A stretch of DNA of 64,000 bases, taken from the NCBI RefSeq assembly GCF_030815405.1, contig NZ_JAUSWX010000001.1, positions 1 to 64,000 on the forward strand. The letters run 5' to 3'. Source of the stretch: Agromyces albus (lineage in GTDB: Bacteria; Actinomycetota; Actinomycetes; Actinomycetales; Microbacteriaceae). The notes beneath the pieces are model-generated. The model had not been told where the DNA came from and made no database searches. It saw nothing but the letters and a program-made list of their open reading frames with translations. Within the stretch, counting starts at the first letter, position 1, and each line of letters opens with the position of its first letter. The translations under genes and the position numbers were made by a program. Below are positions 141 through 28,614 of this stretch, piece by piece.

Positions 141-199
141 TGCAGGGGATTCCGCGTCATGCGCCCGCATACGAGCCCCATGATGGCGAATCTCCTGCA
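141..199. repeat. 59-bp palindromic repeat, copy 1
   Basis: An imperfect inverted repeat. The first 20 and last 20 bases pair at 16 of 20 positions around a 19-nt loop, and the outer ends are TGCAGG and CCTGCA. Two more elements of exactly 59 bp with the same ends occur at 27444-27502 and 28556-28614. It lies in the divergent menF/menG intergenic region. No protein is encoded; a REP-like mobile or structural element is the best description. Confidence 0.75.
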
Positions 200-247
200 C
201 TTTCGAGCCGACGGATGCCGCAGGGCCGGCGGTGGCGCCGGCGTGAT

Positions 248-300
248 CCCCGAGCCACGCGGCCCGGTGGGCCCGGCCGGGCGACCCCGAGCCACGCGGC
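248..300. repeat. 16-bp direct repeat pair upstream of menG
   Basis: The 16-bp sequence CCCCGAGCCACGCGGC occurs at 248-263 and again, identically, at 285-300. The two copies flank a GC-only segment that is itself palindromic (GGGCCCGGCCGGGC). It lies just ahead of the menG -10 element, so it could be a regulatory site or a local duplication. Confidence 0.5.
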
Positions 301-309
301 ATCCGACCG

Positions 310-315
310 TAGACT
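310..315 (+). promoter_or_regulatory. Leaderless-type -10 element of menG
   Basis: TAGACT ends 6 nt before the first ATG of menG at 322. This is the TANNNT spacing typical of actinobacterial promoters that give leaderless or nearly leaderless mRNA. A GAAGG word also lies just before the ATG, so a short leader with a Shine-Dalgarno site is not excluded. Confidence 0.5.
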
Positions 316-321
316 CGAAGG

Positions 322-1029
322 ATGATGCGCGCAGACCTCGGCAAGGAGCCCGAGCAGGTGTCGGCGATGTTCGATCGGGTCGCGGCCCGGTACGACCGCA
401 CGAACACGCTGCTCTCGGTCGGCAACGCACCGCTCTGGCGCGTCGCCACGACGCGGGCGGTCGCGCCGAAGGCGGGGGAGCGCATCCTCGACGTCGCGGC
501 GGGCACGGGCACGTCGAGCGCGAGCCTCGCGAAGTCCGGGGCATCCGTCGTCGCCGCCGACTTCTCGCCGGGCATGATCGAGGTCGGCCGACGGCGCCAG
601 TCGCACGTGCCGAATCTCGTCTTCGTCGAAGCGGATGCCACGAAGCTCCCGTTCGGCGACGACGAGTTCGACGCCGTCACGATCTCGTTCGGCCTGCGCA
701 ACGTCAACGACCCGAAGCAGGCGCTCGCCGAGTTCTTCCGCGTCACCAAGCCCGGCGGTCGCCTCGTCGTGTGCGAGTTCTCGCACCCGCCGGTCGGTGT
801 CGTGCGGGCCGGCTACCACGCCTACCAGCGCTACGTCATGCCCTCGCTCGTGAAGCTCTCGAGCTCGAACGACGACGCCTACGAGTACCTCAACGAGTCC
901 ATCAACGCGTGGCCCGACCAGCGCGCGCTCGCCGGCTGGATCCGCGAGGCAGGCTACACGGATGTCGCATGGCGCAACCTCACCCTCGGTGTCGTCGCGC
1001 TGCACCGCGGCCGCAAGCCCGCCGCCTGA
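322..1029 (+). CDS. menG: Demethylmenaquinone methyltransferase (MenG/UbiE)
   Basis: A class I SAM-dependent methyltransferase of 235 aa, the usual length for UbiE/MenG. It methylates demethylmenaquinone in the last step of menaquinone synthesis. SAM motif I is ILDVAAGTGT (residues 55-64), and the UbiE family signature FGLRNV is at 123-128, followed by a TKPGG segment. Two consecutive ATGs (322, 325) are possible starts; the first is used here. The neighbours agree: a probable isochorismate synthase diverges upstream and the gene for the isoprenoid side-chain synthase follows 44 nt downstream. Confidence 0.93.
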   Translation: MMRADLGKEPEQVSAMFDRVAARYDRTNTLLSVGNAPLWRVATTRAVAPKAGERILDVAAGTGTSSASLAKSGASVVAADFSPGMIEVGRRRQSHVPNLVFVEADATKLPFGDDEFDAVTISFGLRNVNDPKQALAEFFRVTKPGGRLVVCEFSHPPVGVVRAGYHAYQRYVMPSLVKLSSSNDDAYEYLNESINAWPDQRALAGWIREAGYTDVAWRNLTLGVVALHRGRKPAA

Positions 1030-1061
1030 CACCCCGCGACATCCGCTCGAAACCTCACCGG

Positions 1062-1067
1062 TAGGCT
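1062..1067 (+). promoter_or_regulatory. Leaderless-type -10 element of polyprenyl synthase gene
   Basis: TAGGCT ends 6 nt before the GTG at 1074, the same arrangement as upstream of menG. The polyprenyl synthase gene may therefore be transcribed from its own promoter without a 5' leader. Confidence 0.5.
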
Positions 1068-1073
1068 GGGGAC

Positions 1074-2195
1074 GTGAATTCGAGCCACCCGGTCGCCCGT
1101 CGAGGCTCTTCGCTCGCTGCGAACCTCGGCCTGAGCGAGCGCGTCTTCGCCACGTCAGCCGATCGCGCCATGGCGAAGGCGATCGACGACGGGCTCGATC
1201 GGGTCGAGTCGGGGCTCGAGCGCGAGGTGCGATTCGCCGATTCGATCGCCGACGTCTCGACGCGCTACCTGTTCGAGGCGGGCGGCAAGCGCGTTCGCCC
1301 GATGCTCACCCTGCTCACGGCGCAGCTCGGCGCGGGCGTCACCGACGACGTCGTCACCGCGGCCCAGGCGATCGAGATCACGCACCTCGCGAGCCTCTAT
1401 CACGACGACGTCATGGACGAGGCCGACCGCCGCCGGGGCGTGCCGAGCGCGCAGACCGTGTGGGGCAATTCGGTCGCGATCCTCACCGGCGATCTGCTGT
1501 TCGCGCGCGCCAGCCAGCTCATGGCGAGCCTCGGCGAGGGCGCGATCCGCCTGCAGGCCAACACGTTCGAGCGGCTCGTGCTCGGCCAGCTGCACGAGAC
1601 CGTGGGCCCGGCCGAGGGCGAAGACCCGATCACGCACTACATCCAGGTGCTCGCCGACAAGACCGGCTCCCTCATCGCCGCCGCCGCGCAGGCCGGCATC
1701 ATCTTCTCGGGCGCCGACCCGGCGTTCGAGGCCCCCATCATCGCCTTCGGTGAGAAGATCGGCGTCGCCTTCCAACTCGTCGACGACGTCATCGACCTCT
1801 CGCCGCAGCCCGCCGAGACCGGCAAGGTGCCCGGCACCGACCTGCGCGCGGGTGTGGTCACGTTGCCGCTGCTGAGGTTGTCAGAGCATGCGAAGTCGGA
1901 TGCCGCATCCGCCGCCCTGCTCGAACGCATCGAGCGAGACGTGGTCATCGTGACCGACCCGACCGCCCCCGAGGCGATCGACACCAACACCCAGGCGTCG
2001 CGCATCGTGCCGTCGCGAGAGACCGTCGACGCGATCGTCGCCGAGCTCCGCGAGCACGACGCCACCCGCGCTACGCTCGCTGAGGCGCACCGTTGGGCGC
2101 GCGAGGCCGTCGCGGCGCTCGCCCCGCTGCCCGAGGGCAGCGTGAAGAAGGCGCTCACGCGCTTTGCGGAAACGATCGTGGAGAGACAGAGCTAG
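1074..2195 (+). CDS. Polyprenyl diphosphate synthase
   Basis: A trans-prenyltransferase of 373 aa that condenses isopentenyl diphosphate units to make a long-chain polyprenyl diphosphate. The likely product is the side-chain precursor of menaquinone, judged from the adjacent menG. Family motifs are clear: GGKRVRP (70-76), first Asp-rich motif DDVMD (111-115) and second Asp-rich motif DDVID (237-241). The GTG start is supported by the TAGGCT element 6 nt upstream. The stop codon overlaps the GTG of the next gene by one base (TAGTG), so the two are probably translationally coupled. Chain length (C30-C45) cannot be told from sequence. Confidence 0.92.
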   Translation: MNSSHPVARRGSSLAANLGLSERVFATSADRAMAKAIDDGLDRVESGLEREVRFADSIADVSTRYLFEAGGKRVRPMLTLLTAQLGAGVTDDVVTAAQAIEITHLASLYHDDVMDEADRRRGVPSAQTVWGNSVAILTGDLLFARASQLMASLGEGAIRLQANTFERLVLGQLHETVGPAEGEDPITHYIQVLADKTGSLIAAAAQAGIIFSGADPAFEAPIIAFGEKIGVAFQLVDDVIDLSPQPAETGKVPGTDLRAGVVTLPLLRLSEHAKSDAASAALLERIERDVVIVTDPTAPEAIDTNTQASRIVPSRETVDAIVAELREHDATRATLAEAHRWAREAVAALAPLPEGSVKKALTRFAETIVERQS

Positions 2196-3571
2196 TGAAG
2201 AACAAGTTGAGACTGGCGATCGTCGGAGCCGGCCCCGCCGGCATCTACGCCGCCGACATCCTGCTGAAGGCCGAGCGCCACTTCGACGTCTCGATCGACC
2301 TGTTCGATCACCTTCCGGCGCCCTACGGGCTCGTGCGCTACGGCGTCGCCCCCGACCACCCGCGCATCAAGGGCATCATCACAGCGCTCCGCGAGGTGCT
2401 CGACCGTGGCGACATCCGCATCTTCGGAAATGTTCGCTTCGGCGAAGACATCACGCTCGAAGACCTGAAGAAGCACTACAACGCGGTGATCTTCGCCACG
2501 GGAGCGGTGCGCGACGCCTCGCTGCACATCCCGGGGCACGACCTCGACGGCTCGTACGGCGCGGCCGATTTCGTGAGCTGGTTCGACGGGCACCCCGACG
2601 TGCCGCGCACGTGGCCGCTCGAAGCCCGCCAGGCGGCCGTCATCGGCAACGGCAACGTCGCACTCGACGTGTCGCGCATCCTCGCGAAGCACGTCGAAGA
2701 CCTCATGCCGACCGAGATCCCGGCGAACGTCGCGGCCGGTCTCGCCGCCTCGCCCATCACCGACGTGCACGTGTTCGGCCGGCGCGGCCCCACCTCGGTG
2801 AAGTTCACGCCCCTCGAGCTGCGCGAACTCGGCGAGCTGCGCGACGTCGACATGATCCTCTACGACGAGGACTTCGACTACGACGATGCGGCGCGCGCTG
2901 CGGTCGCCGGAAACAAGCAGGTCTTCGTCATCGACAAGGTGCTGAACCAGTGGCGCCAGCGCGAGGTCGGCCAGGCCTCGCGTCGCCTGCACCTGCACTT
3001 CTTCGCGAAGCCCCTCGAGATCGTCGACGACGGCACCGGGCGGGTGGGCGCGTTCCGCTGGGAGCGCACCGCGCCCGACGGCGAGGGCGGCGTGGTCGGC
3101 ACCGGCGAGATCCGCGAGCTGCCCGTGCAGGCTGTCTACCGCGCGGTCGGGTACTTCGGCACGCAGCTGCCGGGCATCCCGTTCGACAAGGACTTCGGCG
3201 TCATCCCGAACCATGAGGGCCAGGTGCTCATCCATGACCAGGAGACGGGCGACAGCCGGCAGATGTACGGCGTCTACGCCACGGGGTGGATCAAGCGCGG
3301 GCCGGTGGGGCTCATCGGGCACACGAAGTCCGACGCCATGGAGACCATCCGCCACGTCATCAACGACCTCGGCAATTGGTGGCGGCCCGAGTCGCCCACA
3401 GAGGAGTCGGTGATCGAGATGCTCGAATCGCGCGGCATCCGCTATACCGATCTCGACGGCTGGCACCGCCTCGACGAGCACGAGAAGGCGCTCGGAACGG
3501 CCGAGGGTCGCATGCGCGTCAAGGTCGTTCCGCGCGATGAGATGGTCGACCTCTCGCGCGGCGAGGCGTAG
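2195..3571 (+). CDS. FAD-dependent ferredoxin/adrenodoxin-type NADP+ reductase (FprA-like)
   Basis: A 458-aa flavoprotein that passes electrons between NADPH and ferredoxin-type proteins. The FAD-binding GxGxxG is GAGPAG (11-16), followed by an APYGLVRYGVAPDHP segment (42-56) characteristic of the adrenodoxin-reductase/FprA group. A second nucleotide-binding motif, GNGNVA, is at 151-156, and a conserved GWIKRGPVGLIGHTK stretch lies in the C-terminal half. The reading frame is open further upstream, but the GTG at 2195, overlapping the previous stop, places the FAD motif at the expected N-terminal position. Confidence 0.9.
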   Translation: MKNKLRLAIVGAGPAGIYAADILLKAERHFDVSIDLFDHLPAPYGLVRYGVAPDHPRIKGIITALREVLDRGDIRIFGNVRFGEDITLEDLKKHYNAVIFATGAVRDASLHIPGHDLDGSYGAADFVSWFDGHPDVPRTWPLEARQAAVIGNGNVALDVSRILAKHVEDLMPTEIPANVAAGLAASPITDVHVFGRRGPTSVKFTPLELRELGELRDVDMILYDEDFDYDDAARAAVAGNKQVFVIDKVLNQWRQREVGQASRRLHLHFFAKPLEIVDDGTGRVGAFRWERTAPDGEGGVVGTGEIRELPVQAVYRAVGYFGTQLPGIPFDKDFGVIPNHEGQVLIHDQETGDSRQMYGVYATGWIKRGPVGLIGHTKSDAMETIRHVINDLGNWWRPESPTEESVIEMLESRGIRYTDLDGWHRLDEHEKALGTAEGRMRVKVVPRDEMVDLSRGEA

Positions 3572-3589
3572 CGCCGCCCCTGCTGCCCG

Positions 3590-3595
3590 CTACGC
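3590..3595 (+). promoter_or_regulatory. Leaderless-type -10 element of prepilin peptidase gene
   Basis: TACGCT ends 8 nt before the ATG at 3604. It may start transcription of the Tad locus independently of the upstream metabolic genes. Confidence 0.4.
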
Positions 3596-3603
3596 TGCAC
3601 TCC

Positions 3604-4257
3604 ATGCCGCTCGCGACCGAGATCACCGTCGTACTCGCGGTCGTCGCCGGCGCCGCCCTCGGCTGGTGGCCGCTCGCCGACTGGGCTCGCCGGTCGATGC
3701 TGGGCGAGCGGATGCCGCAGCAGCGCACGGTGCGCATCGTCGCCGCCGTGACGACCGCCGTGATCTTCGGCGCGCTCGCGTTGCGCTTCGGCCCCACGTT
3801 GACGCTCGCGCCCCTGCTCGCATTCGCCGCCGCGACGACGGTGCTCTCGATCGTGGATCTCGCTGAGAAACGCCTGCCCAACGCGGTCGTGTTCCCGGCC
3901 CTCCTGGCCGTCGGAGTGCTGCTCGTGGCCGCCACGGTCGCGACGGGCGACTGGCTGTCCCCCATCTTCGCTATTGCCGGGGCAGCCGCGATGTTCGCGG
4001 TCTACCTGCTGCTCGCGATCATCTCGCCGTCGTCGATGGGCATGGGCGACGTGAAGCTGGCACTGCCCATCGGGCTGCTGCTCGGCTGGTTCGGGCTCAC
4101 GGCGTGGCTCGTCGGCCTGCTCGCCGCGTTCGTGGTCGGCGGCGTGATCGCGCTGGTCGCGTTGGCCCTGCGCCGCGTCACGCTGCGCGGGTCGATCCCG
4201 TTCGGGCCGTCGATGCTCATGGGGGCGTTGCTGGCGGTGCTGTTCGTCGGGCCGTGA
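3604..4257 (+). CDS. Prepilin peptidase, A24 family (TadV/CpaA-like)
   Basis: An integral membrane aspartic protease of 217 aa that removes leader peptides from Flp-type prepilins. The protein is mostly hydrophobic, with about six membrane segments. The two catalytic aspartates are visible: D85 in a VDLAEKRLPN context and D149 in GMGDVK. It lacks the N-terminal methylation domain of longer PilD proteins, as usual for Tad systems. It is the first gene of the Tad locus, 197 nt ahead of the pilin gene. Confidence 0.9.
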   Translation: MPLATEITVVLAVVAGAALGWWPLADWARRSMLGERMPQQRTVRIVAAVTTAVIFGALALRFGPTLTLAPLLAFAAATTVLSIVDLAEKRLPNAVVFPALLAVGVLLVAATVATGDWLSPIFAIAGAAAMFAVYLLLAIISPSSMGMGDVKLALPIGLLLGWFGLTAWLVGLLAAFVVGGVIALVALALRRVTLRGSIPFGPSMLMGALLAVLFVGP

Positions 4258-4454
4258 GTGGCGAATATCGAAGAGCCCGGAAACGGATGCCGCGCCGCAG
4301 CCTCGGTCAAACATGAGGATCCCCCGAAATGGGGTGTGCGGCTCCGGATCGTTCATGGATACCGTCAGGTACCTGCTGCACCGACGCAGCGACTGCATTA
4401 TCTCCTGTTCCCGCAGGAACGGTGCGGTGTTCCTGCTACCCGAAGGAATTCAAG

Positions 4455-4649
4455 ATGCTCAAGGCATACACGCGTGCTATGGCGCGCATCAACTCCATCA
4501 CCTCCGACGAAGAGGGCGCGACCGCAACCGAATATGCGCTGATCATCGGCGTCGCGTCGATCGCGATCGTGGGTGCGCTGGCGCTGCTCGCCCCAGCCAT
4601 CACTCGATTCGTGAACGAGGTCATCATTCCAGCCCTCGGTCTCAGCTAA
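4455..4649 (+). CDS. flp: Flp/Fap pilin (type IVb prepilin)
   Basis: A 64-aa prepilin and probable main subunit of the Tad pilus. Residues 1-21 form the leader ending in EEG, with cleavage expected after G21. The mature N terminus reads ATATEYAL, with the conserved glutamate at +5 and the Glu-Tyr pair typical of Flp pilins, then a hydrophobic helix. The ATG at 4455 is chosen because GAAGGA (4442-4447) is well placed and the resulting leader length fits the family. The frame is open upstream, but nothing there resembles a pilin. Confidence 0.92.
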   Translation: MLKAYTRAMARINSITSDEEGATATEYALIIGVASIAIVGALALLAPAITRFVNEVIIPALGLS

Positions 4650-4722
4650 GACGCCTCGACTCACTAGTGTGTCCCGACGAGTCCAACAGGTCGTCGGGAC
4701 ACTCTGGGCTGCGGAGGTCCCC

Positions 4723-5088
4723 ATGACTAGCGTTCGATCAGAGCGCGGAGCGGCGGCTGTCGAATTCGCCCTGATCCTCCTGCCATTCCTGCTCATCGTG
4801 TCCCTAGTGGTGGACGTCGGGTGGGTGTTCAGCCAGCAACAAGCGGTGACAAACGCCGCTCGTATAGGTGCGCGCTACTACGCGATCCATCACCTCGAGC
4901 CGAGTGCGCAGGCGGATGCCGAGCAGCGAGCAAATGACGTCGCGACTGCGGCAAACGTCGCCGGACCGATTACGTTCTCCTACCCCTCAACCTGTGCGAG
5001 GCGGGCCGGACTCGACGCTCACGATGACTGTGATCGCACCGATGACGAACTTGACCGGCATGATTCCGGCGTTCGGTGGATCGAATAG
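4723..5088 (+). CDS. tadE: TadE-like minor pseudopilin, C terminus frameshifted
   Basis: TadE family pseudopilin. The N terminus is typical: RGAAAVEFALI with Glu at +5 of the processed form, then a membrane helix. The ATG at 4723 follows GGAG (4713-4716). After about residue 91 the frame yields a hydrophilic sequence unlike TadE, ending at 5088. The +1 frame over 5000-5125 instead encodes STLTMTVIAP and GRASMKCG, the beta-strand and closing segment expected of TadE. The intact protein would then run from 4723 to 5125 and overlap the next start by 13 nt. A one-base indel near 4995-5013, or a sequencing error, is inferred. Confidence 0.8.
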   Translation: MTSVRSERGAAAVEFALILLPFLLIVSLVVDVGWVFSQQQAVTNAARIGARYYAIHHLEPSAQADAEQRANDVATAANVAGPITFSYPSTCARRAGLDAHDDCDRTDDELDRHDSGVRWIE

Positions 5089-5112
5089 TGTGCAGGGAAG
5101 GGCGTCGATGAA

Positions 5113-6111
5113 ATGCGGTGGTTGAAGAGGAGCCGGGAGGAGCGAGGCGCCAGCGCGATGATGTTCGCCTTGGCGATCATCCCGCTGTTGGCGTGCGCTG
5201 CGCTTGCGGGTGACACCGGCCTCCTGTACTGGGAAAAGGCGCAGCTCCAGAACGGAGCTGACGCCGGCGCGATCGCCGTCGCTTCCGACTGTGCCAAGCA
5301 TCCCGGATTGTGCGAGGGGCGCGCCGAAACTCTCGCGACCAGCATCGCAGGTGAGAACGCAAATGATGGAACCAGCGTCGCTGCAATCGACGCGATAACG
5401 GTCAATGCAGGCAGCGGTAGCGTCAAGGTCGACGCCTCGTCACCGAGCGGCGACGGCGTCGAACATCCATTCGCATCCGTCTTCTTCCCGCAGGACGCGA
5501 CCACCCTCCAAGCGACGGCGACCGCCGCATGGGGCACACCCGTGAGAGGCACGACGAAGCTGGCACTGACGATTGCCCAGTGCGAGTTCGTCGATCTACC
5601 GCCACAGGATGCAGACGCACCGAATCCGACGAGGACATGGCTCCTCATCAACAACGGCGGCAGCGGGGAGCCTTGTGCGGATGGCTCACCAGGCGGCTTC
5701 GGTTGGCTCGATGGATCGGGATGTTCAGCCACCATCTCGATCAATTCGACTGTCGGCGGTGAGGTGGGCGTCCAGCCGAATCCGAACAAGAACGGATGCT
5801 CATCCGACGTGATCGAGCAGACGCTGTGTCAAACGGTGCTCATCCCGCTCTATGCATCGAGCGGGGGTTCTGGGTCGCACGCGACATTCACGATCTCGAG
5901 GTTTGCAGCCTTCAAATTGACGGGCGTGAAGACGGGGGGCGCGAACTCCGCCAGATACTGCGGCGGCTCGCCTCTCTCCCCGTCGCTTCCCAACGCGGGC
6001 AACTCGAAAGGCATCCAAGGCTACTTCGTGAGGTATGTCGAGCTGGGCGAAGACTTCGAGCTTGGCAACGGACCGAACGGAGGGCTGATCATCGTCCGGT
6101 TCTCCGGCTGA
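5113..6111 (+). CDS. TadG-related pilus assembly protein
   Basis: 332 aa with an N-terminal TadE/TadG-type hydrophobic segment (ERGASAMMFALAIIPLLA, about residues 9-26) and a periplasm/cell-wall-side domain. ALAGDTGLLYW and ADAGAIAVA match the start of the putative Flp pilus-assembly TadG domain. The usual Glu at +5 after the Gly is replaced by Met, so processing by the prepilin peptidase is uncertain. The remainder is rich in Gly, Ser and Asn and has several Cys. The start overlaps the corrected tadE frame, which suggests coupling. Confidence 0.8.
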   Translation: MRWLKRSREERGASAMMFALAIIPLLACAALAGDTGLLYWEKAQLQNGADAGAIAVASDCAKHPGLCEGRAETLATSIAGENANDGTSVAAIDAITVNAGSGSVKVDASSPSGDGVEHPFASVFFPQDATTLQATATAAWGTPVRGTTKLALTIAQCEFVDLPPQDADAPNPTRTWLLINNGGSGEPCADGSPGGFGWLDGSGCSATISINSTVGGEVGVQPNPNKNGCSSDVIEQTLCQTVLIPLYASSGGSGSHATFTISRFAAFKLTGVKTGGANSARYCGGSPLSPSLPNAGNSKGIQGYFVRYVELGEDFELGNGPNGGLIIVRFSG

Positions 6112-6140
6112 CCGTCTCATATCTTCCACCAAGTCTTTCC

Positions 6141-6164
6141 CTACGACCCTACGACCCTACGACC
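6141..6164 (+). repeat. Three tandem copies of an 8-bp unit
   Basis: CTACGACC is repeated three times without mismatch at 6141-6148, 6149-6156 and 6157-6164, directly upstream of the ribosome-binding region of cpaB (ATG 6179). Copy number could change by slippage and alter spacing between the upstream gene and cpaB. Confidence 0.6.
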
Positions 6165-6178
6165 CGACAGGAACCACA

Positions 6179-6937
6179 ATGAAGACCCGAGTCATCGGCG
6201 CAATCGTGGCGCTTTTGCTGGCCAGTGTCGGCGCATTCGTCCTCATCTTGTATGTGCGCGGCGCAGATGCCAGAGCCGCCGAGGGCGCGGAACTCGTCGA
6301 TACCTACATCGTGCAAGAGACCATTCCGAAGGGTACCCCTGGCGAGAGTGTTGCGGAGTTCATTACGGCGGACACCGTTCCCGAGCGCAACCTCGCTGAT
6401 GGGGCGGTCACCGATCTGGAGGAACTCATCGGGCTTGTCGCCGGTGCGGACATCCTGCCAGGAGAGCAGTTGCTCGAAGCGCGTTTCCTCGACCCGCTCG
6501 ACCTCGCTGCCAAGGGGGAGGTCACTGTTCCCGAGGGCATGCACCTGCTGTCATTTACGCTCCCGGCCGACCGCGTGGTTGGCGGAGAGGTCAAGGCCGG
6601 GGATTTCATCGGAATGGTTGGGACGGTTGACCCGGGCGAGCCGGAGGGCCAGGAGGAGGTCATCAACCCGACCACGCAGTTCACATTCAACCATGTCCTG
6701 GTCACGAAGGTTCAGGGCGTTGCCGTGCCGAGCGAAGGCTCTGACGAGGCCGCAGCCCAGGACCCCACCGGCGCAATCATGCTCACGATCGCGCTCTCGA
6801 CACATGACGTCGAACGCTGGGTCTGGTTCGCCGAGGGCGAGTCCAGCAACTATGCGAACATGTGGCTTACCCTGCAGACCGAGTCAACCGACACGAGCGG
6901 ATCAGTCCGCGTCGACTCAGGTAATGTCTGGCCGTGA
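6179..6937 (+). CDS. cpaB: Flp pilus assembly protein CpaB/RcpC
   Basis: 252 aa: one N-terminal membrane segment (about residues 5-26), then an SAF domain (about 40-105, with VDTYIVQETIPKGT and ADILPGEQLLEARF), then a RcpC/CpaB domain with VPEGMHLLSFTLPADRVVGG near 120-140. CpaB is an envelope component of Tad secretion, thought to stabilise the channel. No rcpA secretin gene accompanies it, as expected in a monoderm. The TGA overlaps the GTG of cpaE by 4 nt. Confidence 0.88.
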   Translation: MKTRVIGAIVALLLASVGAFVLILYVRGADARAAEGAELVDTYIVQETIPKGTPGESVAEFITADTVPERNLADGAVTDLEELIGLVAGADILPGEQLLEARFLDPLDLAAKGEVTVPEGMHLLSFTLPADRVVGGEVKAGDFIGMVGTVDPGEPEGQEEVINPTTQFTFNHVLVTKVQGVAVPSEGSDEAAAQDPTGAIMLTIALSTHDVERWVWFAEGESSNYANMWLTLQTESTDTSGSVRVDSGNVWP

Positions 6938-10686: not shown

Positions 10687-10687
10687 G

Positions 10688-11563: not shown

Positions 11564-11610
11564 TCATTGGTGCCAGCCGCGGCATCCGTCTGCGAGTCGC
11601 CTTCACGCGG

Positions 11611-12099
11611 TCAGCGGAAGTTCACGAACTGCAGCGCGACGTCGAGGTCTTTGCCCTTCAGGAGCGCCATCGTCGCCTGCAGGTCGTCGCGGCTCTTCGA
11701 CGAGACGCGGAGCTCGTCGCCCTGGATCTGGCTCTTCACGCTCTTCGGCGCCTCGTCGCGGATGATCTTGTTGATCTTCTTCGCGTTCTCGGAGTCGATG
11801 CCGGCCTTCATCGTGGTCTCGATGCGGTACTCCTTGCCCGACGCGAAGGGCTCGCCGGCGTCGAGCGAACGCAGCGAGATGCCGCGCTTGATGAGCTTCG
11901 CCTCGTACACCTCGAGGATCGCCTTCGCGCGCTCTTCGCTGTTGGCCTTGATCAGCACCTTGTCGCCGGACTGCTCGATCGACGCGCCCACGTTCTTGAA
12001 GTCGTAGCGCTGCGCGACCTCTTTCTGCGCCTGGTGGAGCGCGTTGTCGGCCTCCATCTGGTCGACCTTGGAAACGATGTCGAACGTTGAATCTGCCAT
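11611..12099 (-). CDS. YajQ family nucleotide-binding protein
   Basis: 162 aa, the normal length for the UPF0234/YajQ family, starting [13 protein letters not shown] and ending VALQFVNFR as in most members. Some homologues bind cyclic di-GMP and act with transcription factors; whether this one does is unknown. It is transcribed on its own, convergent to the Tad locus. A dyad at 12118-12158 separates it from the upstream glycosidase operon. Confidence 0.92.
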
Positions 12100-17147: not shown

Positions 17148-17198
17148 AGTGCGCCTCCTTGCGCTTCGTGGTGCAGGTAGTGCGAGTGGAGCCGGTCG

Positions 17199-19334: not shown

Positions 19335-19340
19335 GAGTTC

Positions 19341-19437
19341 TTTCTACGGCAGAAATAACTGGGCTGTCAAGACAGTGTTCCCAGGCGTCCGCCGGGTGCG
19401 GACCGCCGTTCTGTCGCTCGCTTCATGTCACAATGAA
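19341..19437. promoter_or_regulatory. Candidate operators between GH36 and ROK genes
   Basis: Two short inverted repeats lie in the divergent intergenic region: TTTCT-N5-AGAAA at 19341-19355, directly before the GH36 start, and TTCAT-N6-ATGAA at 19422-19437, before the ROK gene. Both have TTC/GAA-type half-sites. They are candidates for binding by the ROK or the nearby LacI regulator. Confidence 0.35.
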
Positions 19438-19476
19438 ACGAAATAGGCCAACGATGACCCGCCGAAAGAGAACCCG

Positions 19477-20643: not shown

Positions 20644-20646
20644 CCG

Positions 20647-21663: not shown

Positions 21664-21715
21664 GTGCTCCTCGCCCTCGGTTTCCCGCGCGATTGCGCGT
21701 TCGGGCCCCGCTCGA

Positions 21716-21721
21716 ATCCTA
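21716..21721 (-). promoter_or_regulatory. -10 element of the LacI regulator gene
   Basis: On the minus strand TAGGAT is a good actinobacterial -10 hexamer about 53 nt upstream of the ATG, giving a leader of about 45 nt with a GAGGAG ribosome site. No convincing -35 was identified. Confidence 0.4.
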
Positions 21722-21804
21722 GCGGCGGGGCGTCGCACTACTGGCCGATCTGGCCGCGGTGCTGGTCGGCGTCATGCGGCGACGCCGAAGCTGACAACTT
21801 CGGC

Positions 21805-21833
21805 ACGATTGCCGCGCCACGCGGAGCAATCGT
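21805..21833. promoter_or_regulatory. Large dyad in the LacI/small-protein divergent region
   Basis: ACGATTGC at 21805-21812 and GCAATCGT at 21826-21833 are perfect inverted repeats, and the interior continues with CGCG/CGCG arms. Because the flanking genes diverge it is not a terminator for either. It ends at the first base of the -35 element of the downstream gene, so an operator role is likely. Confidence 0.45.
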
Positions 21834-21862
21834 TGCCCAGCCGCGAATTCGTGCTGTAGAAA
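21833..21862 (+). promoter_or_regulatory. Promoter of the small protein/PH-domain operon
   Basis: TTGCCC at 21833-21838 and TAGAAA at 21857-21862 with an 18-bp spacer form a plausible housekeeping promoter about 65 nt ahead of the ATG at 21928. Confidence 0.4.
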
Positions 21863-21927
21863 GGCATGCGTCAGGGCTTGCACCGGGGGCGGCTTGCCCG
21901 CCGTTGCCGTCGAAGGGAAGCATCGTG

Positions 21928-22092
21928 ATGAAGTGGGTCAAGGGCATCGGCATCGCGCTCGTCGTGGTCTTCGCCCTGTTCTACATGATCTCCCGACCTG
22001 AGGATGCCGCGAACGCCGTGCAAGGCGCCGTCGGCGCGGTCGTGACGGCGACCGACGCGATGGGCCGGTTCTTCTCCTCGCTCGCGACATGA
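21928..22092 (+). CDS. Small single-pass membrane protein, function unknown
   Basis: 54 aa: a short basic N terminus (MKWVKG), a hydrophobic helix (about 7-20) and an Ala/Val-rich amphipathic tail. GAAGGGAAG precedes the start. The last four bases ATGA overlap the start of the PH-domain gene, so the two are translationally coupled and probably functionally linked. I do not recognise the family. Confidence 0.7.
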   Translation: MKWVKGIGIALVVVFALFYMISRPEDAANAVQGAVGAVVTATDAMGRFFSSLAT

Positions 22093-22676
22093 GCGTCTCG
22101 AGGTTGTTCGAATTCGACCCCCGGGTCGAGCGGCACCTCATCGCAGACGAGGGCGAAGTCATCATCGACGAGGTGCGCAAGCACTGGGCGGCGATCGTCG
22201 GTCCCATGCTCGAGCTCGCCGCCGCAGTCCCGTTCCTGCTGATCATCTTCTGGGTGCCCGCCGCGGCATGGTGGGTTCCGTTCGTCATCGCCATGTGTCT
22301 GGCCCTGCACGCGACGTGGCGGATCCTCCAGGCTCGAATGGACCGTTTCGTGATCACCAACATGCGGGTGTTCCGCGTGCACGGCATCCTGTCGCAACAC
22401 ATCGCCACCATGCCGATCGCTCGAATCCTCGACATCTCGGTGCGAAAGCCGATGATCGGCCGCGTCTTCGGCTACGGCCACTTCGTGTTCGAGTCCGCGG
22501 CCCAAGACCAGGGGCTTCGCGAGATCCGGTACGTCGGCTCGCCCGACGAGCGCGGCAGCTCCATCCAGCGGGTCATCCAGCGCTCGGGCCTCCGCGGGGC
22601 GGTTCGCCAGTCGAAGGCCGAACATGCCTGGCCACCCGACGGCACCTGGCGCCGTGCATCCGCTCGCTGGCGCTGA
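22089..22676 (+). CDS. PH domain-containing membrane protein (bacterial PH, DUF304-like)
   Basis: 195 aa. Two membrane helices (about 40-75) are followed by a bacterial pleckstrin-homology-like domain (about 80-165), with RFVITNMRVFRVHGIL and MPIARILDISVRKP segments typical of the family. The role of these proteins is poorly known; envelope stress or membrane binding has been suggested for relatives. It is coupled to the small membrane protein upstream. Confidence 0.8.
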   Translation: MSVSRLFEFDPRVERHLIADEGEVIIDEVRKHWAAIVGPMLELAAAVPFLLIIFWVPAAAWWVPFVIAMCLALHATWRILQARMDRFVITNMRVFRVHGILSQHIATMPIARILDISVRKPMIGRVFGYGHFVFESAAQDQGLREIRYVGSPDERGSSIQRVIQRSGLRGAVRQSKAEHAWPPDGTWRRASARWR

Positions 22677-22748
22677 TTTCTCGACACGCCTCTCGACGGG
22701 TATCCTTGACAGGCCCCCGGTTGTGTGCAGAACGTGGTCGGGTGCGAC

Positions 22749-22830
22749 GGCGAGTTACCCAAGCGGCCAAAGGGATCTGACTGTAAATCAGACTGCTCAG
22801 CATTCGGGGGTTCGAATCCCTCACTCGCCA
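22749..22830 (+). tRNA. tRNA-Tyr (anticodon GTA)
   Basis: An 82-nt class II tRNA with a long variable arm. The acceptor GGCGAGT pairs with ACTCGCC (22823-22829), the discriminator is A, the anticodon loop is CTGTAAA between TCTGA/TCAGA stems, and the T arm contains GTTCGAATC. The CCA end is not encoded. A TTGACA at 22706-22711 may be its -35 element. A terminator follows at once. Confidence 0.95.
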
Positions 22831-22837
22831 CGTGAAC

Positions 22838-22868
22838 AGCCCCGGTCGCGACCGGGGCTTTCGTGTTT
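22838..22868 (+). terminator. Rho-independent terminator after tRNA-Tyr
   Basis: AGCCCCGGT (22838-22846) pairs perfectly with ACCGGGGCT (22851-22859) around a CGCG loop, followed by TTCGTGTTT. It lies 8 nt past the tRNA, so it ends the tRNA transcript. Confidence 0.8.
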
Positions 22869-22932
22869 CCGGCGCTTTCGGCCGCGCCGTTGGAGCCTGC
22901 CGATCAGGCAGTCGGGCCGTCGTCGGCGGCCG

Positions 22933-23637
22933 TCACGCGGCGGGCCGCGTCGGGTGCGGCACCGCACGATAGGTGTGAATGGATGCCGCGGCGAGCCAGG
23001 CCCATCCGACGAGCACGGTGAGCCACAGCGATGCGACGCCGGCAGGCCCTGCCGACAGCGCCGCGCCGCCGAAGAACCCGAGGATGATCACGGCGCCGGC
23101 CACGCGGCATCCGATCGCCCACCCTCGTTCGCTCAGGCGAGCGCTGCGGCTGCCGTACGCGATCGCCGCGATGGCGAGCGTGACGAATCCCAAGGCGCCG
23201 AACGCGAAGTGCAGCAGCCCCGAGACGCCGAGCGTGGTCGCCATCTCCGAGCCGACCGGGAAGCCGGCCATCGGGTCGGGCGGGAAGATGCCGCTGCCCA
23301 CAAGGCACACGCCGTAGAAGGCTACGAGCCATCCGGTGACGCGGGCCCGGTCGGGCGCCCGCAGGAATCCGATGGCGGCGGCGATCACCATGAGCCCCGA
23401 GAGGATCAGGTTCGTCATCTGGATCCAGCCCGCGTCGCCGAGCATGAGCAGGCTGAGCGGATGCTGCGCCAGGTCGAAGCCTGGAGTGAAGGGCACCTGC
23501 ACGAGGCTCACGATGAGGTAGAACGGGCCGACGACGACACCCCAGCCGAGGAGTGAGCGCGTGACGGCTGCTGCGCCGTCGAAGCCCGCCGGGCGATTGG
23601 CGCGGGTGGCGCGAGCTGCGCCGGGTGTTGTGGACAT
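22933..23637 (-). CDS. DUF998 domain-containing membrane protein
   Basis: 234 aa with six predicted membrane helices. GVVVGPFYLIVSLVQ, HPLSLLMLGDAGWIQ and GSGIFPPDPMAGFP match the DUF998 family, whose function is unknown. It diverges from a TetR regulator gene; the 94-nt gap holds clear palindromes, so TetR control of this gene is likely. Confidence 0.85.
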   Translation of the reverse strand: MSTTPGAARATRANRPAGFDGAAAVTRSLLGWGVVVGPFYLIVSLVQVPFTPGFDLAQHPLSLLMLGDAGWIQMTNLILSGLMVIAAAIGFLRAPDRARVTGWLVAFYGVCLVGSGIFPPDPMAGFPVGSEMATTLGVSGLLHFAFGALGFVTLAIAAIAYGSRSARLSERGWAIGCRVAGAVIILGFFGGAALSAGPAGVASLWLTVLVGWAWLAAASIHTYRAVPHPTRPAA

Positions 23638-23666
23638 GGCCGACCTCCGATCGTGAACTACACTGA

Positions 23667-23706
23667 TGCGTGCAGTATTGCACGCACGAGTGCATTAGTA
23701 CACTGG
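23667..23706. promoter_or_regulatory. Palindromic operators between DUF998 and TetR genes
   Basis: A 20-bp palindrome at 23667-23686 has 8-bp perfect arms (TGCGTGCA and TGCACGCA) around GTAT. Immediately after, AGTGCATTAGTACACT (about 23689-23704) is a second, imperfect palindrome. This is a typical setting for a TetR autoregulator controlling itself and a divergent membrane protein. Confidence 0.6.
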
Positions 23707-23731
23707 TGAGTAAAAGAAATCGAGGAACGCA

Positions 23732-24379
23732 ATGCAGGTGCCGGTCTCCACCGACCCGCGTGTCGAGCGATCGCGCGCCGTGATCCTCGAGGCGGCCGCG
23801 GCGCACTTCCTCCGGCACGGGTTCATCGCCGCGAATGTCGACGAGATCGCCGCCGAGGCGAGGGTCTCCAAGCGCACCGTCTACAACATCTTCGGCGGCA
23901 AGGAGCAGCTCTTCCGAGAGATCCTCGGCAACGCGATCGACACGGCCGAGCGCTTCTCGACCGACATCGCCGGGGAGCTCGCCGAGGCGGCCGATCCCGA
24001 GAGCGCGCTTCGCGAGACCGGCATGCGGCTCGCCCGCATCGTGTTCGGCGGTCGTGTCGTGGCCCTTCGGCGGCTGCTCATCGGCGAGACCGCGCGATTC
24101 CCGGAGCTCGCGGCGGACTACTACGACCGCGCCCCGGGGCGGGTCATGCGCACCATCGCCGAGGCGCTCGAGCGATTCCGTGAGCGCGGTGTGCTCGACT
24201 TCGACGACGCCGCCGAGGCAGCCGAGCACTTCGCATTCCTCGTCATGGGAGCACCGCTCGATCGGGCCATGTTCATCCTCGACGGGCAGCCCGACCCGCC
24301 GGCGATCGAGCGCCGAGCCGAGCGCGGCGTTGCCGTGTTCCTCCGCGCGTATGTCGGTGGGAGACGCGCGCGCGCGTGA
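23732..24379 (+). CDS. TetR/AcrR family transcriptional regulator
   Basis: 215 aa. The N-terminal TetR helix-turn-helix (about 14-60, with VDEIAAEARVSKRTVYNIFG) is followed by an all-helical ligand domain with an AefR-like arrangement. It diverges from the DUF998 gene and probably binds the palindromes at 23667-23706. The stop overlaps the frame of the following IMPase-like gene, whose own start is 30 nt further on. Confidence 0.9.
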   Translation: MQVPVSTDPRVERSRAVILEAAAAHFLRHGFIAANVDEIAAEARVSKRTVYNIFGGKEQLFREILGNAIDTAERFSTDIAGELAEAADPESALRETGMRLARIVFGGRVVALRRLLIGETARFPELAADYYDRAPGRVMRTIAEALERFRERGVLDFDDAAEAAEHFAFLVMGAPLDRAMFILDGQPDPPAIERRAERGVAVFLRAYVGGRRARA

Positions 24380-24408
24380 GGGTTGTGCGTGCCGCGTACC
24401 GTGAGGGG

Positions 24409-25242
24409 ATGACCCAGCACGAGACATCCGACGCATCCGCTCCCGCTGCCCTGCTCGAGCTCGCTCGCAGCATCGCGTTGCGGGCGGCCGAGTTCGCGCT
24501 CGACGCGCGAACCGCCGGCGTGAGTGTGGCGGCCACGAAGTCGACGCCGACCGACATCGTCACGGCGGTCGACCGCGACACCGAGGCCCTGATCCGCTCG
24601 CTCGTGCTCGAAGCCCGGCCCGACGACGGCATCCTCGGCGAGGAGGGCGTGACCCACGTCGGCACGAGCGGCCTGAACTGGGTGGTCGATCCGATCGACG
24701 GCACGGTCAACTTCCTCTACGACATCCCCGCGTGGTCGGTGAGCATCGCGGTCGTCGACGGGCCGGCCGATCCCGGCGCCTGGAGCGCGCTCGCCGGGGT
24801 CGTGGTGAACCCCGTCTCGGGCGAGGTCTTCGAGGCGAGCGCCGGCGGGGGAGCGCGACTCGACGGACGAACCCTTCAGGTGAACACGGATGTCTCGCTC
24901 GGCCAGTCCCTCGTCGGCACCGGGTTCTCCTACGCCGCCGAGCGCCGGCGCGCCCAAGCCGAGGTGATGCTCGAGCTGCTCCCGCGAGTGCGCGACATCC
25001 GCCGCTTCGGATCAGCGGCCCTCGACCTCTGCGGGGTTGCCGCCAGCCGGCTCGACGCCTTCTACGAGAGCGGCCTGAACCCGTGGGATCACGCGGCCGG
25101 CGCCCTCGTCGCGCGCGAAGCCGGCGCTCGCATCGGCGGCCCGCGGGGCAGTGCCGAGAGCATCGAACTCCTCATCGCAGCGCCGCCCGGGCTCTACGCC
25201 GAGCTCGCGTCCGCGCTCATCGACGCGGGTCTCGACGCGTGA
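24409..25242 (+). CDS. Inositol monophosphatase family protein
   Basis: 277 aa, Mg-dependent phosphatase fold. Motifs: GEEG (77-80), DPIDGT (94-99) and WDHAAG near 222, which together bind metals and phosphate. Candidates are inositol-1-phosphate or histidinol-phosphate phosphatase; sequence alone does not decide. The ATG at 24409 follows GAGGGG and a TACCGT -10-like word. An earlier in-frame start at 24376 would overlap tetR but adds a sequence without family similarity. Confidence 0.88.
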   Translation: MTQHETSDASAPAALLELARSIALRAAEFALDARTAGVSVAATKSTPTDIVTAVDRDTEALIRSLVLEARPDDGILGEEGVTHVGTSGLNWVVDPIDGTVNFLYDIPAWSVSIAVVDGPADPGAWSALAGVVVNPVSGEVFEASAGGGARLDGRTLQVNTDVSLGQSLVGTGFSYAAERRRAQAEVMLELLPRVRDIRRFGSAALDLCGVAASRLDAFYESGLNPWDHAAGALVAREAGARIGGPRGSAESIELLIAAPPGLYAELASALIDAGLDA

Positions 25243-25319
25243 TTCAGCGGCGGATTCCCCGCCGTCATGCGGATGGCCCCGCTCTCAGTCCGCGCGGCTT
25301 CCGGAAATCTCCGTTCGCC

Positions 25320-25348
25320 TTGGCAAGGTGGTGGTCAGCAGGTAGTCT
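25320..25348 (+). promoter_or_regulatory. Promoter of the M23 peptidase gene
   Basis: TTGGCA at 25320-25325 and TAGTCT at 25343-25348 are separated by exactly 17 bp. The leader to the GTG at 25434 is about 80 nt. Confidence 0.5.
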
Positions 25349-25433
25349 TTACCAATCCGTTATCTCGACGTGATGTCGCGATGAACACCTCCGAGATCCC
25401 CCGCTCACCCCCAATGCCGAAGGTCCTTCACAC

Positions 25434-27344
25434 GTGCTCGAGTCCCCCCTCGTGCCCGACGGTTCAACGCCAGGCACTCAGGCTTCATTGCGGCCCGAGC
25501 GACCCCTGACGCGACGTGAATTACGTGAGCGCGAGGCGGCTGAGGCTCGGCAGGCCGAGGGGCACGGCATCGAGGCGGTCGTCGAATCGGCTGCTCAGTC
25601 TTCGGCTGGTGCGGATCGCAACGCCGATCTTCCGGTAGGGCAGCCGGGCTTCGACGCCGCTGCAGGGGCAGCACCGCAGCCGAGCTTCGACGAGCTCTTC
25701 GGCATCTCGGCCGGCGCTCCGGCCGAAGCCGCCCCGACACCGCGGTCCGACCGTCGAGCGGATGCCGCGAGCCATCCGAGCTCCGAGCTCCGGTCCCGCC
25801 GCACAACTGCTCCCACCCCTGCACGGTTCTCCCAGGCCGAGCCGGCCGACTCTCGAGTCGACCCGGACTCGGCCTTCGCTGTTTCCCGCTCCGAGGGCTC
25901 CGCGTCCTCAGAGACGAACGCCTTCGACTCGCTGTTCGGCGGGCTCGGCGACCAGGCCCTCGACGACGTCGATGCGGCGAACGTCACGGCGCGCAGCGGC
26001 CGCAAAGCGCGCGCGTCCAAGCCGACGCGAGCGGAACGCAAGGCCCAGAAGGCTGCTCGAGCGGCTGGACCGCGACGCGTCGGTGCGGCGGCCACGCCGG
26101 CCAAACCTCCGACCTCTGCGGTGCCTGGCGTGCCGACGCCCGTGCCGATGCCAGCCCAGTCGGCCGTACCGAAGCCCGCCCCGCCGGCCGTACCGAGGCC
26201 GGCAACGCAGGAGGTCGCCGCGAATGCAGCGGCTGCGGCATCCGTCGCCGTCACCGCAACCATCGCCACCTCGGCCGGTGCGAAGGCGCCCGGCCCGGCG
26301 TCATCCGACAGCTTCGACGCGCTCGACATCTTCGCCAGGAATTCGCCGGCGCCTTCGCCGACGTCGGCCGCCGCGTTGCCGTCGGCAGCATTGATGCCGA
26401 CGGTCGACGAGGGGCGCGCTTCGCGTCGCGACGTGGCGACCTTGGTCGAGGCCGAATCGCGCCGCCGCTCGACGTCGTCATCCTCGTCGTCGGGCTGCGG
26501 GCGCCGAACCAACGACCACGCCGCCCGCGGTCAGGCGCCGCGAGACCCCCGCTCGAACCACACCGGCATCCCGGCGATCCGCAACACCCGCCCGACGCGT
26601 CCCACGACGGCGTCCGTTGCGGCCACGCCGCGCAAGCGCCGCGGAGGCGCTCGTGTTGCGACTGTCGTCGCGATGAGCTTCGCTGCGCTGCTCGCCGTCG
26701 CGACATCCGTGCCGTCGCTCTCGTTGCTCACCCCCGCCGACGTGCAGGCCATGGCCCTCGAGAGCGTGGCGACCGACGAGCCCGACGCCCAGCGCGTCGA
26801 GATCACGGGCGGCGCGCTCGCGCAGAGCGTCGAGCGCGAGGGCTACAAGGCCCAGTCGATCGAGGAGTACGCCAAGGCGGCCGGCATTCGCGCCGAGGCG
26901 ACGTTCACGAACAACCCGGCGGGCACGATCCAGTGGCCGTTCGCCGTCGGCGTGCACATCGGCGACCGCTTCGGCTATCGCGACTGCTACGGCTGTTCGA
27001 CCAACCACGGCGGCCAGGACTTCAACCCGGGCCTCGGCGCCGAGATCCAGTCGATCGCCGACGGCACCGTGGTCGTGGCCGAGAACGGCGGCGGGTCACT
27101 CGGCGTCGTCATGATGATCGATCACGAGATCGACGGCCAGAAGGTCACGAGCGTCTACGCGCACATGGAGTACGACTCGATGCGCTTCGCGGTCGGCGAC
27201 CAGGTGGGCGTCGGCGACGTCATCGGCACCACGGGCGACACCGGCATGTCCACCGGTCCTCACCTGCACTTCGAAATCCGCCTCGGCGGCGTCGACGGCA
27301 TGAAGGTCGACCCGCTCGTCTGGCTCTACGAGAACACGAACTAG
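25434..27344 (+). CDS. M23 family metallopeptidase (cell-wall endopeptidase)
   Basis: 636 aa. The N-terminal half is low-complexity, rich in Ala, Pro, Ser and Arg (1 to about 405), with repeated PKPA/PRPA stretches near 240-260. One membrane helix follows (about 408-428), then an extracytoplasmic region with a LytM/M23 domain (about 500-630). Zinc ligands are visible in NHGGQDFNPG (near 524) and HLHFE (near 610). It probably cuts peptidoglycan cross-bridges or regulates an amidase. The stretch 26460-26640 reads as Ser/Arg-rich sequence unlike its surroundings. The GTG start lacks a strong ribosome site. Confidence 0.85.
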   Translation: MLESPLVPDGSTPGTQASLRPERPLTRRELREREAAEARQAEGHGIEAVVESAAQSSAGADRNADLPVGQPGFDAAAGAAPQPSFDELFGISAGAPAEAAPTPRSDRRADAASHPSSELRSRRTTAPTPARFSQAEPADSRVDPDSAFAVSRSEGSASSETNAFDSLFGGLGDQALDDVDAANVTARSGRKARASKPTRAERKAQKAARAAGPRRVGAAATPAKPPTSAVPGVPTPVPMPAQSAVPKPAPPAVPRPATQEVAANAAAAASVAVTATIATSAGAKAPGPASSDSFDALDIFARNSPAPSPTSAAALPSAALMPTVDEGRASRRDVATLVEAESRRRSTSSSSSSGCGRRTNDHAARGQAPRDPRSNHTGIPAIRNTRPTRPTTASVAATPRKRRGGARVATVVAMSFAALLAVATSVPSLSLLTPADVQAMALESVATDEPDAQRVEITGGALAQSVEREGYKAQSIEEYAKAAGIRAEATFTNNPAGTIQWPFAVGVHIGDRFGYRDCYGCSTNHGGQDFNPGLGAEIQSIADGTVVVAENGGGSLGVVMMIDHEIDGQKVTSVYAHMEYDSMRFAVGDQVGVGDVIGTTGDTGMSTGPHLHFEIRLGGVDGMKVDPLVWLYENTN

Positions 27345-27443
27345 CGTCGCCCTCGCCCTCGCCCGCTCGTCAACGCCACGTCGGGCTCGGATCGCGAGAC
27401 CTGCTCGCGCTCGTGTCGCATCCATTGGCCGCGACATCCCGGA

Positions 27444-27502
27444 TGCAGGCGAATCACGATCATCCCGACGCTGCGGCGAGGCATGATCGCGTTTCCCCTG
27501 CA
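27444..27502. repeat. 59-bp palindromic repeat, copy 2
   Basis: The same class of element as at 141-199. The outer ends are TGCAGG and CCTGCA, 17 of 20 terminal positions pair, and the loop is a 19-nt sequence unlike the other copies. The arms end in ATCAT/ATGAT. It lies in the gap between the M23 peptidase and the DUF559 gene. Confidence 0.75.
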
Positions 27503-27612
27503 GCACTCCACGGGCGTTCGGACGAGCCCTCCACAGGCGATCGGTGGGGGCCGTTCTCCACAGCGCGTTCGGCGCGCGGTCACCAGGCCTCGAACGCGTC
27601 AAGACTCACGGG

Positions 27613-28524
27613 ATGACTCCCTCGGCCATGGAACCAGCGCGACTCATCCGTGCCAATGGAGGTGTGCTGCCTCGCCGCGCTCTCGAGCAGGCGGGTGTGA
27701 GTCGTGGCGTACTCCAGCGGGGAGTCGCAAGCGGCGCAGTCTTCGCAGTGCGCCGCGGCTGGTACGGCGTACCGGATGCTCCGTCCGCGGTCGTGGGGGC
27801 GGTGCGCGTCGGGGGCACGTTGACGGCGGCATCCGTCGCTCGACTCCACGGACTCTGGACGCTCGACGATCCCATGCTCCATGTGCGCGTGGCGGGTGGC
27901 GCGTCGCGGCTCCGCTCGCCTCTCGACCGAGCTGTTCCGCTGGAGAAGTCGCATGGCGTCTGTGTCCACTACCGCGAGCGACCGAGTGGGCCGAACGACG
28001 TGCCGGCCCGCGACTCATTGCCACGCGCCCTCGCCGAGATGTTCACGTGCGCTGGCTCCCTGGCTGCGATGATCGCCGTGGACTCCGCGCTGAACCTGCG
28101 TGAGCTCTCGGGCGCCGGGCGAGCCGAGCTCCGCGCGCTCGTGCCCGCGTCGAAGCGTCGACTCATCGACCACGCCGACCCCCACTGCGACTCGGGGCTC
28201 GAGACGATCGCGCGGATGCTCCCGCGCGGCAAGCGTCTGTCGCACCGCACGCAGGCGTACATTCCCGGCGTCGGGCGCGTCGACCTGCTCATCGGAGATC
28301 GGCTCGTCATCGAACTCGACGGCGCCGGCTTCCACATGGACACGAAGGACTTCGCCGAGGATCGCCGTCGCGGGTTCGAACTCGTGATGCGTGGCTATCT
28401 CGTCGTGCGCCTGACGTACGACATGGTCGTGCACGACTGGGAGCGTACGCAAGGCGACCTGCTGGCGCTCATCGAGCGCGGCGAGCACCGCTGGGGTGCT
28501 CGGGCGCAGGCCTGGGAGCGCTGA
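27613..28524 (+). CDS. DUF559 endonuclease-like protein with AbiEi-type N-terminal domain
   Basis: 303 aa. The N-terminal winged-helix part (about 1-60, GGVLPRRALEQAGVSRGVLQRGVASG then an RRGWYGVP strand) resembles the antitoxin-type domain of AbiEi proteins. The C-terminal 100 aa have a PD-(D/E)XK/Vsr-like fold of DUF559: DLLIGDRLVIELDGAGFH, then a RGYLVVRLTY strand. Such proteins are common in Microbacteriaceae and uncharacterised. No partner toxin gene is adjacent. The gene is flanked on both sides by the 59-bp palindromic repeats. Confidence 0.75.
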   Translation: MTPSAMEPARLIRANGGVLPRRALEQAGVSRGVLQRGVASGAVFAVRRGWYGVPDAPSAVVGAVRVGGTLTAASVARLHGLWTLDDPMLHVRVAGGASRLRSPLDRAVPLEKSHGVCVHYRERPSGPNDVPARDSLPRALAEMFTCAGSLAAMIAVDSALNLRELSGAGRAELRALVPASKRRLIDHADPHCDSGLETIARMLPRGKRLSHRTQAYIPGVGRVDLLIGDRLVIELDGAGFHMDTKDFAEDRRRGFELVMRGYLVVRLTYDMVVHDWERTQGDLLALIERGEHRWGARAQAWER

Positions 28525-28555
28525 CTGGTTGGCGCGCCCTACATCCGCATCCGGA

Positions 28556-28614
28556 TGCAGGGGATTCCAAGTCATGGCTGGCGTGGGCAGGGGTATGACG
28601 CAGTATCCCCTGCA
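28556..28614. repeat. 59-bp palindromic repeat, copy 3
   Basis: Outer ends TGCAGGGGAT and ATCCCCTGCA are a perfect 10-bp inverted pair; 16 of 20 terminal positions pair overall around a 19-nt loop. Like the other copies it is exactly 59 bp and intergenic, here 31 nt after the DUF559 stop. It could serve as a bidirectional attenuator between convergent genes. Confidence 0.75.

Follow-up and report, generated by a model that had tools for sequence, protein, structure and literature searches.

DUF559 nuclease genes between gene-specific palindromes in Agromyces: a possible selfish or mobile DNA system of small size, apparently not described before

Introduction

The closest described counterpart of the DNA treated here is the REPIN/RAYT system. 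In the accessible text of two papers on it, each gene has one repeat class and is flanked by repeats, several unrelated classes can be present in a genome, and the GTAG repeats are placed in Proteobacteria, Cyanobacteria, Chloroflexi and PVC bacteria (PMC3116915, PMC3733652). A second point of reference is VsrA of Caulobacter, a Vsr-like DUF559 protein for which the accessible part of its description proposes a role in mismatch repair, connected with a cytosine methyltransferase (PMC12907096). The DUF559 domain itself is still listed as of 'unknown function', yet it is widespread in the bacterial family studied here. The open-licence literature searched (titles and starts of abstracts) gave no link of DUF559 genes with palindromic repeats.

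This work describes DUF559 genes that lie between palindromes with gene-specific arms. The starting point is a window of 64,000 bases, i.e. bases 1-64000 of a single contig of 4,268,800 bases (a 4.27-Mb Agromyces chromosome, hereafter the own genome). It was compared with a sample of 60 genomes (the own genome, 36 of the same genus and 23 others) and with family-wide and phylum-wide samples of DUF559 loci.

Results

Three palindromes in the window

The first-pass annotation of the window had reported three 59-bp palindromes, two of them flanking a DUF559 gene. The features concerned are the following.

141..199, no strand: solo palindrome of family A (L001), upstream of a ubiE/menG-type gene (ORF 322-1029, plus strand, Pfam-based)
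25434..27344, plus strand: M23 peptidase gene, the neighbour on one side of the cassette, conserved in most carriers
27444..27502, no strand: upstream bracket palindrome of the DUF559 gene, family A
27613..28524, plus strand: DUF559 gene A, 303 aa (ATG start chosen by eye; the ORF is listed from GTG 27544)
28556..28614, no strand: downstream bracket palindrome of the DUF559 gene, family A
28806..30536, minus strand: alpha-amylase family gene, the neighbour on the other side of the cassette

The description of these elements was confirmed. Each is 59 bp long, starts with TGCAGG and ends with CCTGCA, and a count by eye gives 16, 17 and 16 matching positions in the 20-nt arms, against a claimed 16-17 of 20. 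The flanked gene matches PF04480 (E 1e-4). The pattern TGCAGG-N40-54-CCTGCA has exactly three matches in the window, with a mean of 0.03 expected and three reached in 0 of 100 shuffles; the three palindromes are real and not a product of chance. The supposedly fixed length is approximate: 38 elements, own and other, span 54 to 59 bp apart from one doubtful 51-bp candidate, with 58 bp the commonest length in relatives. The idea that structure and not sequence is conserved fails inside the genome, where the arm sequence is conserved as approximately TGCAGGnGAwTC....TCATG. The annotation had also noted the flanking of the DUF559 gene by two elements, but missed the pairing as the key point, and it had suggested a check for a REP-associated tyrosine transposase as partner, where the gene between the repeats is a DUF559 nuclease.

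An Rfam search of the window at the gathering threshold returned three tRNAs only and left the palindromes unmatched, and an RNA family identity was therefore rejected. Separately, a 31-nt GC-rich repeat stands in three tandem copies at 28728-28820, between the downstream bracket and the end of the amylase gene.

Family A across the genome and the genus

A covariance model built from seven own copies found at least 13 family A copies in the own genome (E below 0.001), a lower bound because 150 of 2896 first-look candidates were scored; the doubtful 51-bp candidate, at 184633 (E 0.04), was left out of the count. This bears out a dispersed, mostly intergenic, REPIN-like family with matches in relatives, of about a dozen copies per family and not many dozens. 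The suggested search of relatives with such a model gave matches at E 0.001 in 16 of the 36 same-genus genomes (17 of the 60 with the own genome) and in none of the 23 genomes from other families of the order.

Over the seven own copies, pairing covariation did not exceed that of shuffles; within this genome the arms have their sequence in common except for 4-nt stretches that vary, as does the centre. Across the genus the dyad does covary: among 45 elements (44 distinct), 128 both-sided changes were counted, compared with a mean of 68 in shuffles, and 79.2% of dyad cells were paired, compared with 69.5%, neither value being reached in 500 shuffles. The symmetry has thus been retained while the arm sequence drifted between species.

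An exact-pattern scan of genome contigs matched two stretches, from Agromyces albus and Thalassolituus maritimus. In the former the bracketed gene recurs at 94% identity, and among the named close homologues of its protein several also belong to Agromyces. In the latter, a gammaproteobacterium, one stretch (L049, 3484-3541) fits the arm pattern, perhaps by chance.

Four DUF559 genes, each with its own palindromes

A PF04480 search found four DUF559 genes in the own genome, and a palindrome scan showed all four to be bracketed by one long palindrome per side. The arms of each bracket pair match each other and not those of the other pairs, starting with TGCAGG in A, CGAGAGTGCGC in B, TGACGCnnATCGAC in C and GGATTCGGGGATT in D. 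With arm patterns used for B to D, the families comprise 13 (A), 5 (B), 9 (C) and 4 (D) copies including two brackets each, so that 11, 3, 7 and 2 of them are solo; with the patterns reversed as a control, B, C and D gave 2, 0 and 0. Of the 23 solo copies, 21 were examined, and 17 of these overlap no ORF with a coding-like base pattern while four do.

Some observations concern the placement of these copies. The 31 copies of all four families, at 26 loci, crowd into one half of the chromosome; a 2.13-Mb arc (about 0.90-3.03 Mb) holds a single locus (2452505), which 0 of 20000 random placements matched, a figure that rests on family A counts that are a lower bound. GC skew over 20 sampled stretches was uninformative on a link with origin or terminus. 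Two solo family B palindromes (L078 and L079, 400850-401349) lie about 450 bp apart with no recognisable DUF559 piece between them, and are possibly the remains of a bracketed unit.

Bracketing beyond the own genome

Bracketing was scored as the number of agreeing arm positions among the four arms of the upstream and downstream palindromes. The own genes score 10 (A), 12 (B), 13 (C) and 14 (D), the window's A pair being the weakest and lying under the 10.5 line even though its ends match exactly; one of 84 ordinary own genes reaches 10.5.

DUF559 matches occur in 37 of 60 genomes of the window's family, the own genome included. For 29 of the 36 other DUF559 genomes, one per genus, the best locus was scored: 13 of these 29 loci reach 11, versus 1 of 400 mismatched flank pairs, and 14 reach 10.5, versus 3 of 400, which leaves 16 below 11. 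Among Agromyces loci, 21 of 30 reach 11 versus 9 of 300 mismatched pairs, where one of the 21 (L129) resembles GC-rich chance and some of the mismatched pairs have an arm type in common across species. In a phylum-wide sample, 3 of 28 scored loci reach 11 (one further locus at a contig edge, L165, was left unscored) and none of 300 mismatched pairs does. Bracketing is thus common in the window's family (13/29) and sparse in the wider sample (3/28).

At two loci (L149 in G020 and L150 in G018) a further DUF559 type is flanked on either side by the same AT-richer arms, GGATATACGATCCG; each locus scores 14. In G015 (L048/L068), a third palindrome lies about 50 bp beyond one of the DUF559 bracket palindromes.

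Association of palindrome arms with the gene

On our reading of the matches, 20 of the 36 Agromyces relatives have a DUF559 gene of the A type, at an identity of about 50% or higher, and in four of these it is fragmented. Both this gene and A-like palindromes are found in 13 relatives, palindromes only in 3, the gene only in 7 and neither in 13 (one-sided Fisher p 0.007 over the 36), where gene-only means without palindromes detectable by the own-type covariance model. All 13 relatives with both have at least one palindrome away from the bracket.

Solo arms resemble the bracket arms of their own genome: in 10 genomes, 24 of 32 are best matched or tied by these, a result reached in 1 of 5000 permutations, with the qualifications that related genomes are non-independent, that the model used to find the solo copies was one of own-type arms, and that L037, L039 and L042, for whose genomes no bracket arms were entered, are left out. 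In the DUF559 tree the four genomes with the CATGAGA arm type (G010, G026, G011 and G035) make up a single clade with 100/100 support; in the tree of the neighbouring amylase gene they are ungrouped. Six arm states over 15 genomes, assigned by eye after inspection of the trees and with G029 left out as unclear, need five changes on the DUF559 tree, the minimum, versus seven on the amylase tree. The palindrome arms follow the DUF559 gene tree better than the tree of the neighbour.

The DUF559 protein

Protein A (303 aa) combines a weak AbiEi-like winged-helix N-terminus with a C-terminal Vsr/EDxHD-like nuclease domain. The DUF559 domain was found, C-terminally, in all 55 aligned homologues, and AbiEi_4 matched 18 of the 55 at E 0.01. 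The AbiEi domain lies below the Pfam cut-offs, and the PADLOC AbiEi model matches A (E 5e-5) and gives no match for C. In the homologue alignment E197, D224, D236, H241 and D250 are invariant and E234 is nearly so, and these conserved acidic and histidine residues are consistent with an active nuclease. The PADLOC HEase model also matches (E 4e-4), and the family profile matches PDB entry 3r3p, 'Mobile intron protein' (E 3e-4), which we take to be the catalytic domain of I-Bth0305I.

Replacement of cassettes at fixed loci

The A-type gene adjoins the amylase gene in 18 of the 20 carrier relatives, 16 of these with an M23 protein match on the opposite side. In G015 and G025 an A-type gene, still bracketed, stands at a second locus beside a gene common to both species (86% DNA identity; IclR-type, a by-eye reading, as are the kinase-like, VOC-type and hydrolase neighbour names). 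This puts one cassette type at a second locus in each of the two species. At the M23/amylase place G015 retains a fragmented A-type copy, next to which one palindrome with different arms was found. Broken homologues are present in G009, G025 and G028.

At the A locus, the own genome and G007 are 95% identical in the amylase gene and 59% in the DUF559 gene. The amylase tree groups the own genome, G031 and G007 at 100/100, a clade that the DUF559 data reject (p-AU 0.00026). At the D locus, identity between the own genome and G031 is 96-99% as far as the ends of both neighbour genes, and the middle of roughly 1.3 kb holds different bracketed DUF559 genes with different arms (46 and 50% protein identity over two matches); in G031 this locus is found on two contigs, and its gene is probably broken because it lies in two frames. 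Beside the same right-hand neighbour, G028 carries a third DUF559 gene, 50% identical to the own D. Cassettes have been replaced as whole units at fixed loci and not by gradual change.

Occupancy of solo sites

Four own solo sites (L013, L017, L018 and L022) are occupied in G007. The L001 site (141..199) is empty in G007, which has about 155 bp less there, and is empty in G031 too; at L025 it is G031 that has an empty site, its DNA being about 171 bp shorter there. G031 does have the L020 element; in G007 the matching DNA begins just past this element on one side, and no element was found. When 22 orthologous stretches were searched with the model, elements were found only at the L016 and L020 stretches of G031. 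Since sites are filled in some relatives and empty in others, the occupancy of solo sites changes.

As a side observation, the kinase-like gene at L016 has the element on one side in the own genome and on the other in the closely related G031 (L197). A clean solo insertion with target duplication was sought and not found: the indels at the two absent sites that were aligned measure about 155-171 bp, with neither a clean empty site nor a target-site duplication.

Discussion

A DUF559 gene and its palindrome family probably form one cognate unit, a cassette, that works like REPIN/RAYT with a homing-endonuclease-like enzyme. Its observable parts are bracketing by palindromes of about 45-75 bp, gene-specific arms, scattered and mostly intergenic solo copies, the association of arms with the gene, and replacement of whole units. 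The position of the genes between gene-specific palindromes predicts these palindromes as their DNA substrate. In the mechanism that we propose, the winged-helix and nuclease protein would bind and cut its own palindrome, either as duplex or as extruded hairpin. The break would be repaired from another palindrome-bearing copy, and such repair-driven copying could spread solo palindromes, keep the arms alike within a genome and drive cassette replacement. Both the cleavage of palindromes by the DUF559 protein and the movement of the elements are inferred from comparative data, and against the mechanism it can be said that plain homologous recombination could equally swap a cassette. The score of the window's A pair under 10.5, the loci of the family and phylum samples that stay below 11, the relatives with only the gene or only the palindromes, and the broken homologues count against it as well. 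With slightly less than even confidence, we further suggest a separate mobile class of Actinobacteria, in which palindrome-specific DUF559 nucleases would maintain their solo copies and replace one another at fixed loci, an HUH-free reinvention of REPIN/RAYT.

An unlikely alternative, though the strongest of those considered, is that the palindromes are regulatory sites: the AbiEi-like N-terminus would bind them and control its own gene, the solo copies would be its regulon, and cassettes would change by ordinary recombination. The weak AbiEi-type winged helix of protein A fits this, as do the dyad symmetry with conserved arms and a variable centre, and the four solo sites common to the own genome and G007. 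A regulator leaves the second full palindrome downstream of the gene unaccounted for, and the solo sites often follow genes or sit between gene ends and not before promoters, while whole cassettes are replaced together with new arms.

It is still less probable that the unit is a homing cassette only, whose palindromes are the nuclease target, whose gene spreads by break repair and whose solo copies are remnants or pre-existing targets. Such an account would draw on the relationship of the catalytic domain to the EDxHD-type entry 3r3p, on the PADLOC HEase match and on replacement at fixed loci. It is at odds with a gene flanked by two complete palindromes and not by one split site, and with the solo loci, none of 22 of which holds a recognisable piece of proteins A to D at E 0.01; moreover, the intact targets of the own genome would be cut unless protected. 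That the elements are bystander hairpins (terminators, structural repeats where convergent genes end, or miniature elements that belong to an unrelated transposase) with incidental DUF559 adjacency is very improbable. Their hairpin potential and the position of some copies between convergent genes, e.g. L020, speak for it; against it are the matched gene-specific arms at all four own DUF559 genes and in many other genera, compared with one in 84 ordinary genes, and the arms that follow the DUF559 tree.

If the separate mobile class suggested above is real, it would help to explain the abundance of 'very-short-patch-repair endonuclease' genes in Microbacteriaceae. The large number of gene-arm pairs also provides a natural series from which the DNA specificity of a nuclease can be read in its sequence.

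Comparison with known systems

Like MITEs and other insertion-sequence derivatives, the elements are short and dispersed and have inverted ends; unlike in them, the arms stand in one short palindrome and not at the ends of a longer element. No clean target-site duplication was found at the two aligned absent sites, which show larger indels. The protein resembles AbiEi, the antitoxin of the AbiE type IV toxin-antitoxin system, in weak N-terminal similarity, but its C-terminus is a nuclease and the neighbours at the A locus, where this was compared, are an M23 peptidase and an amylase gene with no AbiEii toxin. With VsrA of Caulobacter it has the DUF559 domain in common, and the accessible part of the VsrA paper does not mention palindromes (PMC12907096). 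As in EDxHD-type (Vsr-like) homing endonucleases, the catalytic domain is related, as judged from profiles, and alleles are replaced at fixed loci, whereas here a free-standing gene lies between two complete palindromes, solo copies occur elsewhere and there is an additional, weakly AbiEi-like domain.

The likeness to REPIN/RAYT, or 'REPtron', as far as the accessible text of its descriptions goes, extends to inverted conserved arms, a variable centre and a dispersed, mostly intergenic distribution (PMC3116915, PMC3733652), and to one palindrome class per DUF559 gene with repeats beside the gene, in all four own cases. Copies are fewer than in typical REPINs, about 4-13 per family. In the bracketed genes a DUF559 nuclease takes the place of the Y1 (HUH) tyrosine transposase, and inspection of 38 elements by eye showed no GTAG tag; for these two reasons we do not regard the system as a member of REPIN/RAYT. 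If our reading is true, REPIN-like populations have had two or more origins, with enzymes unrelated to each other, a point of relevance to the question of why such populations persist.
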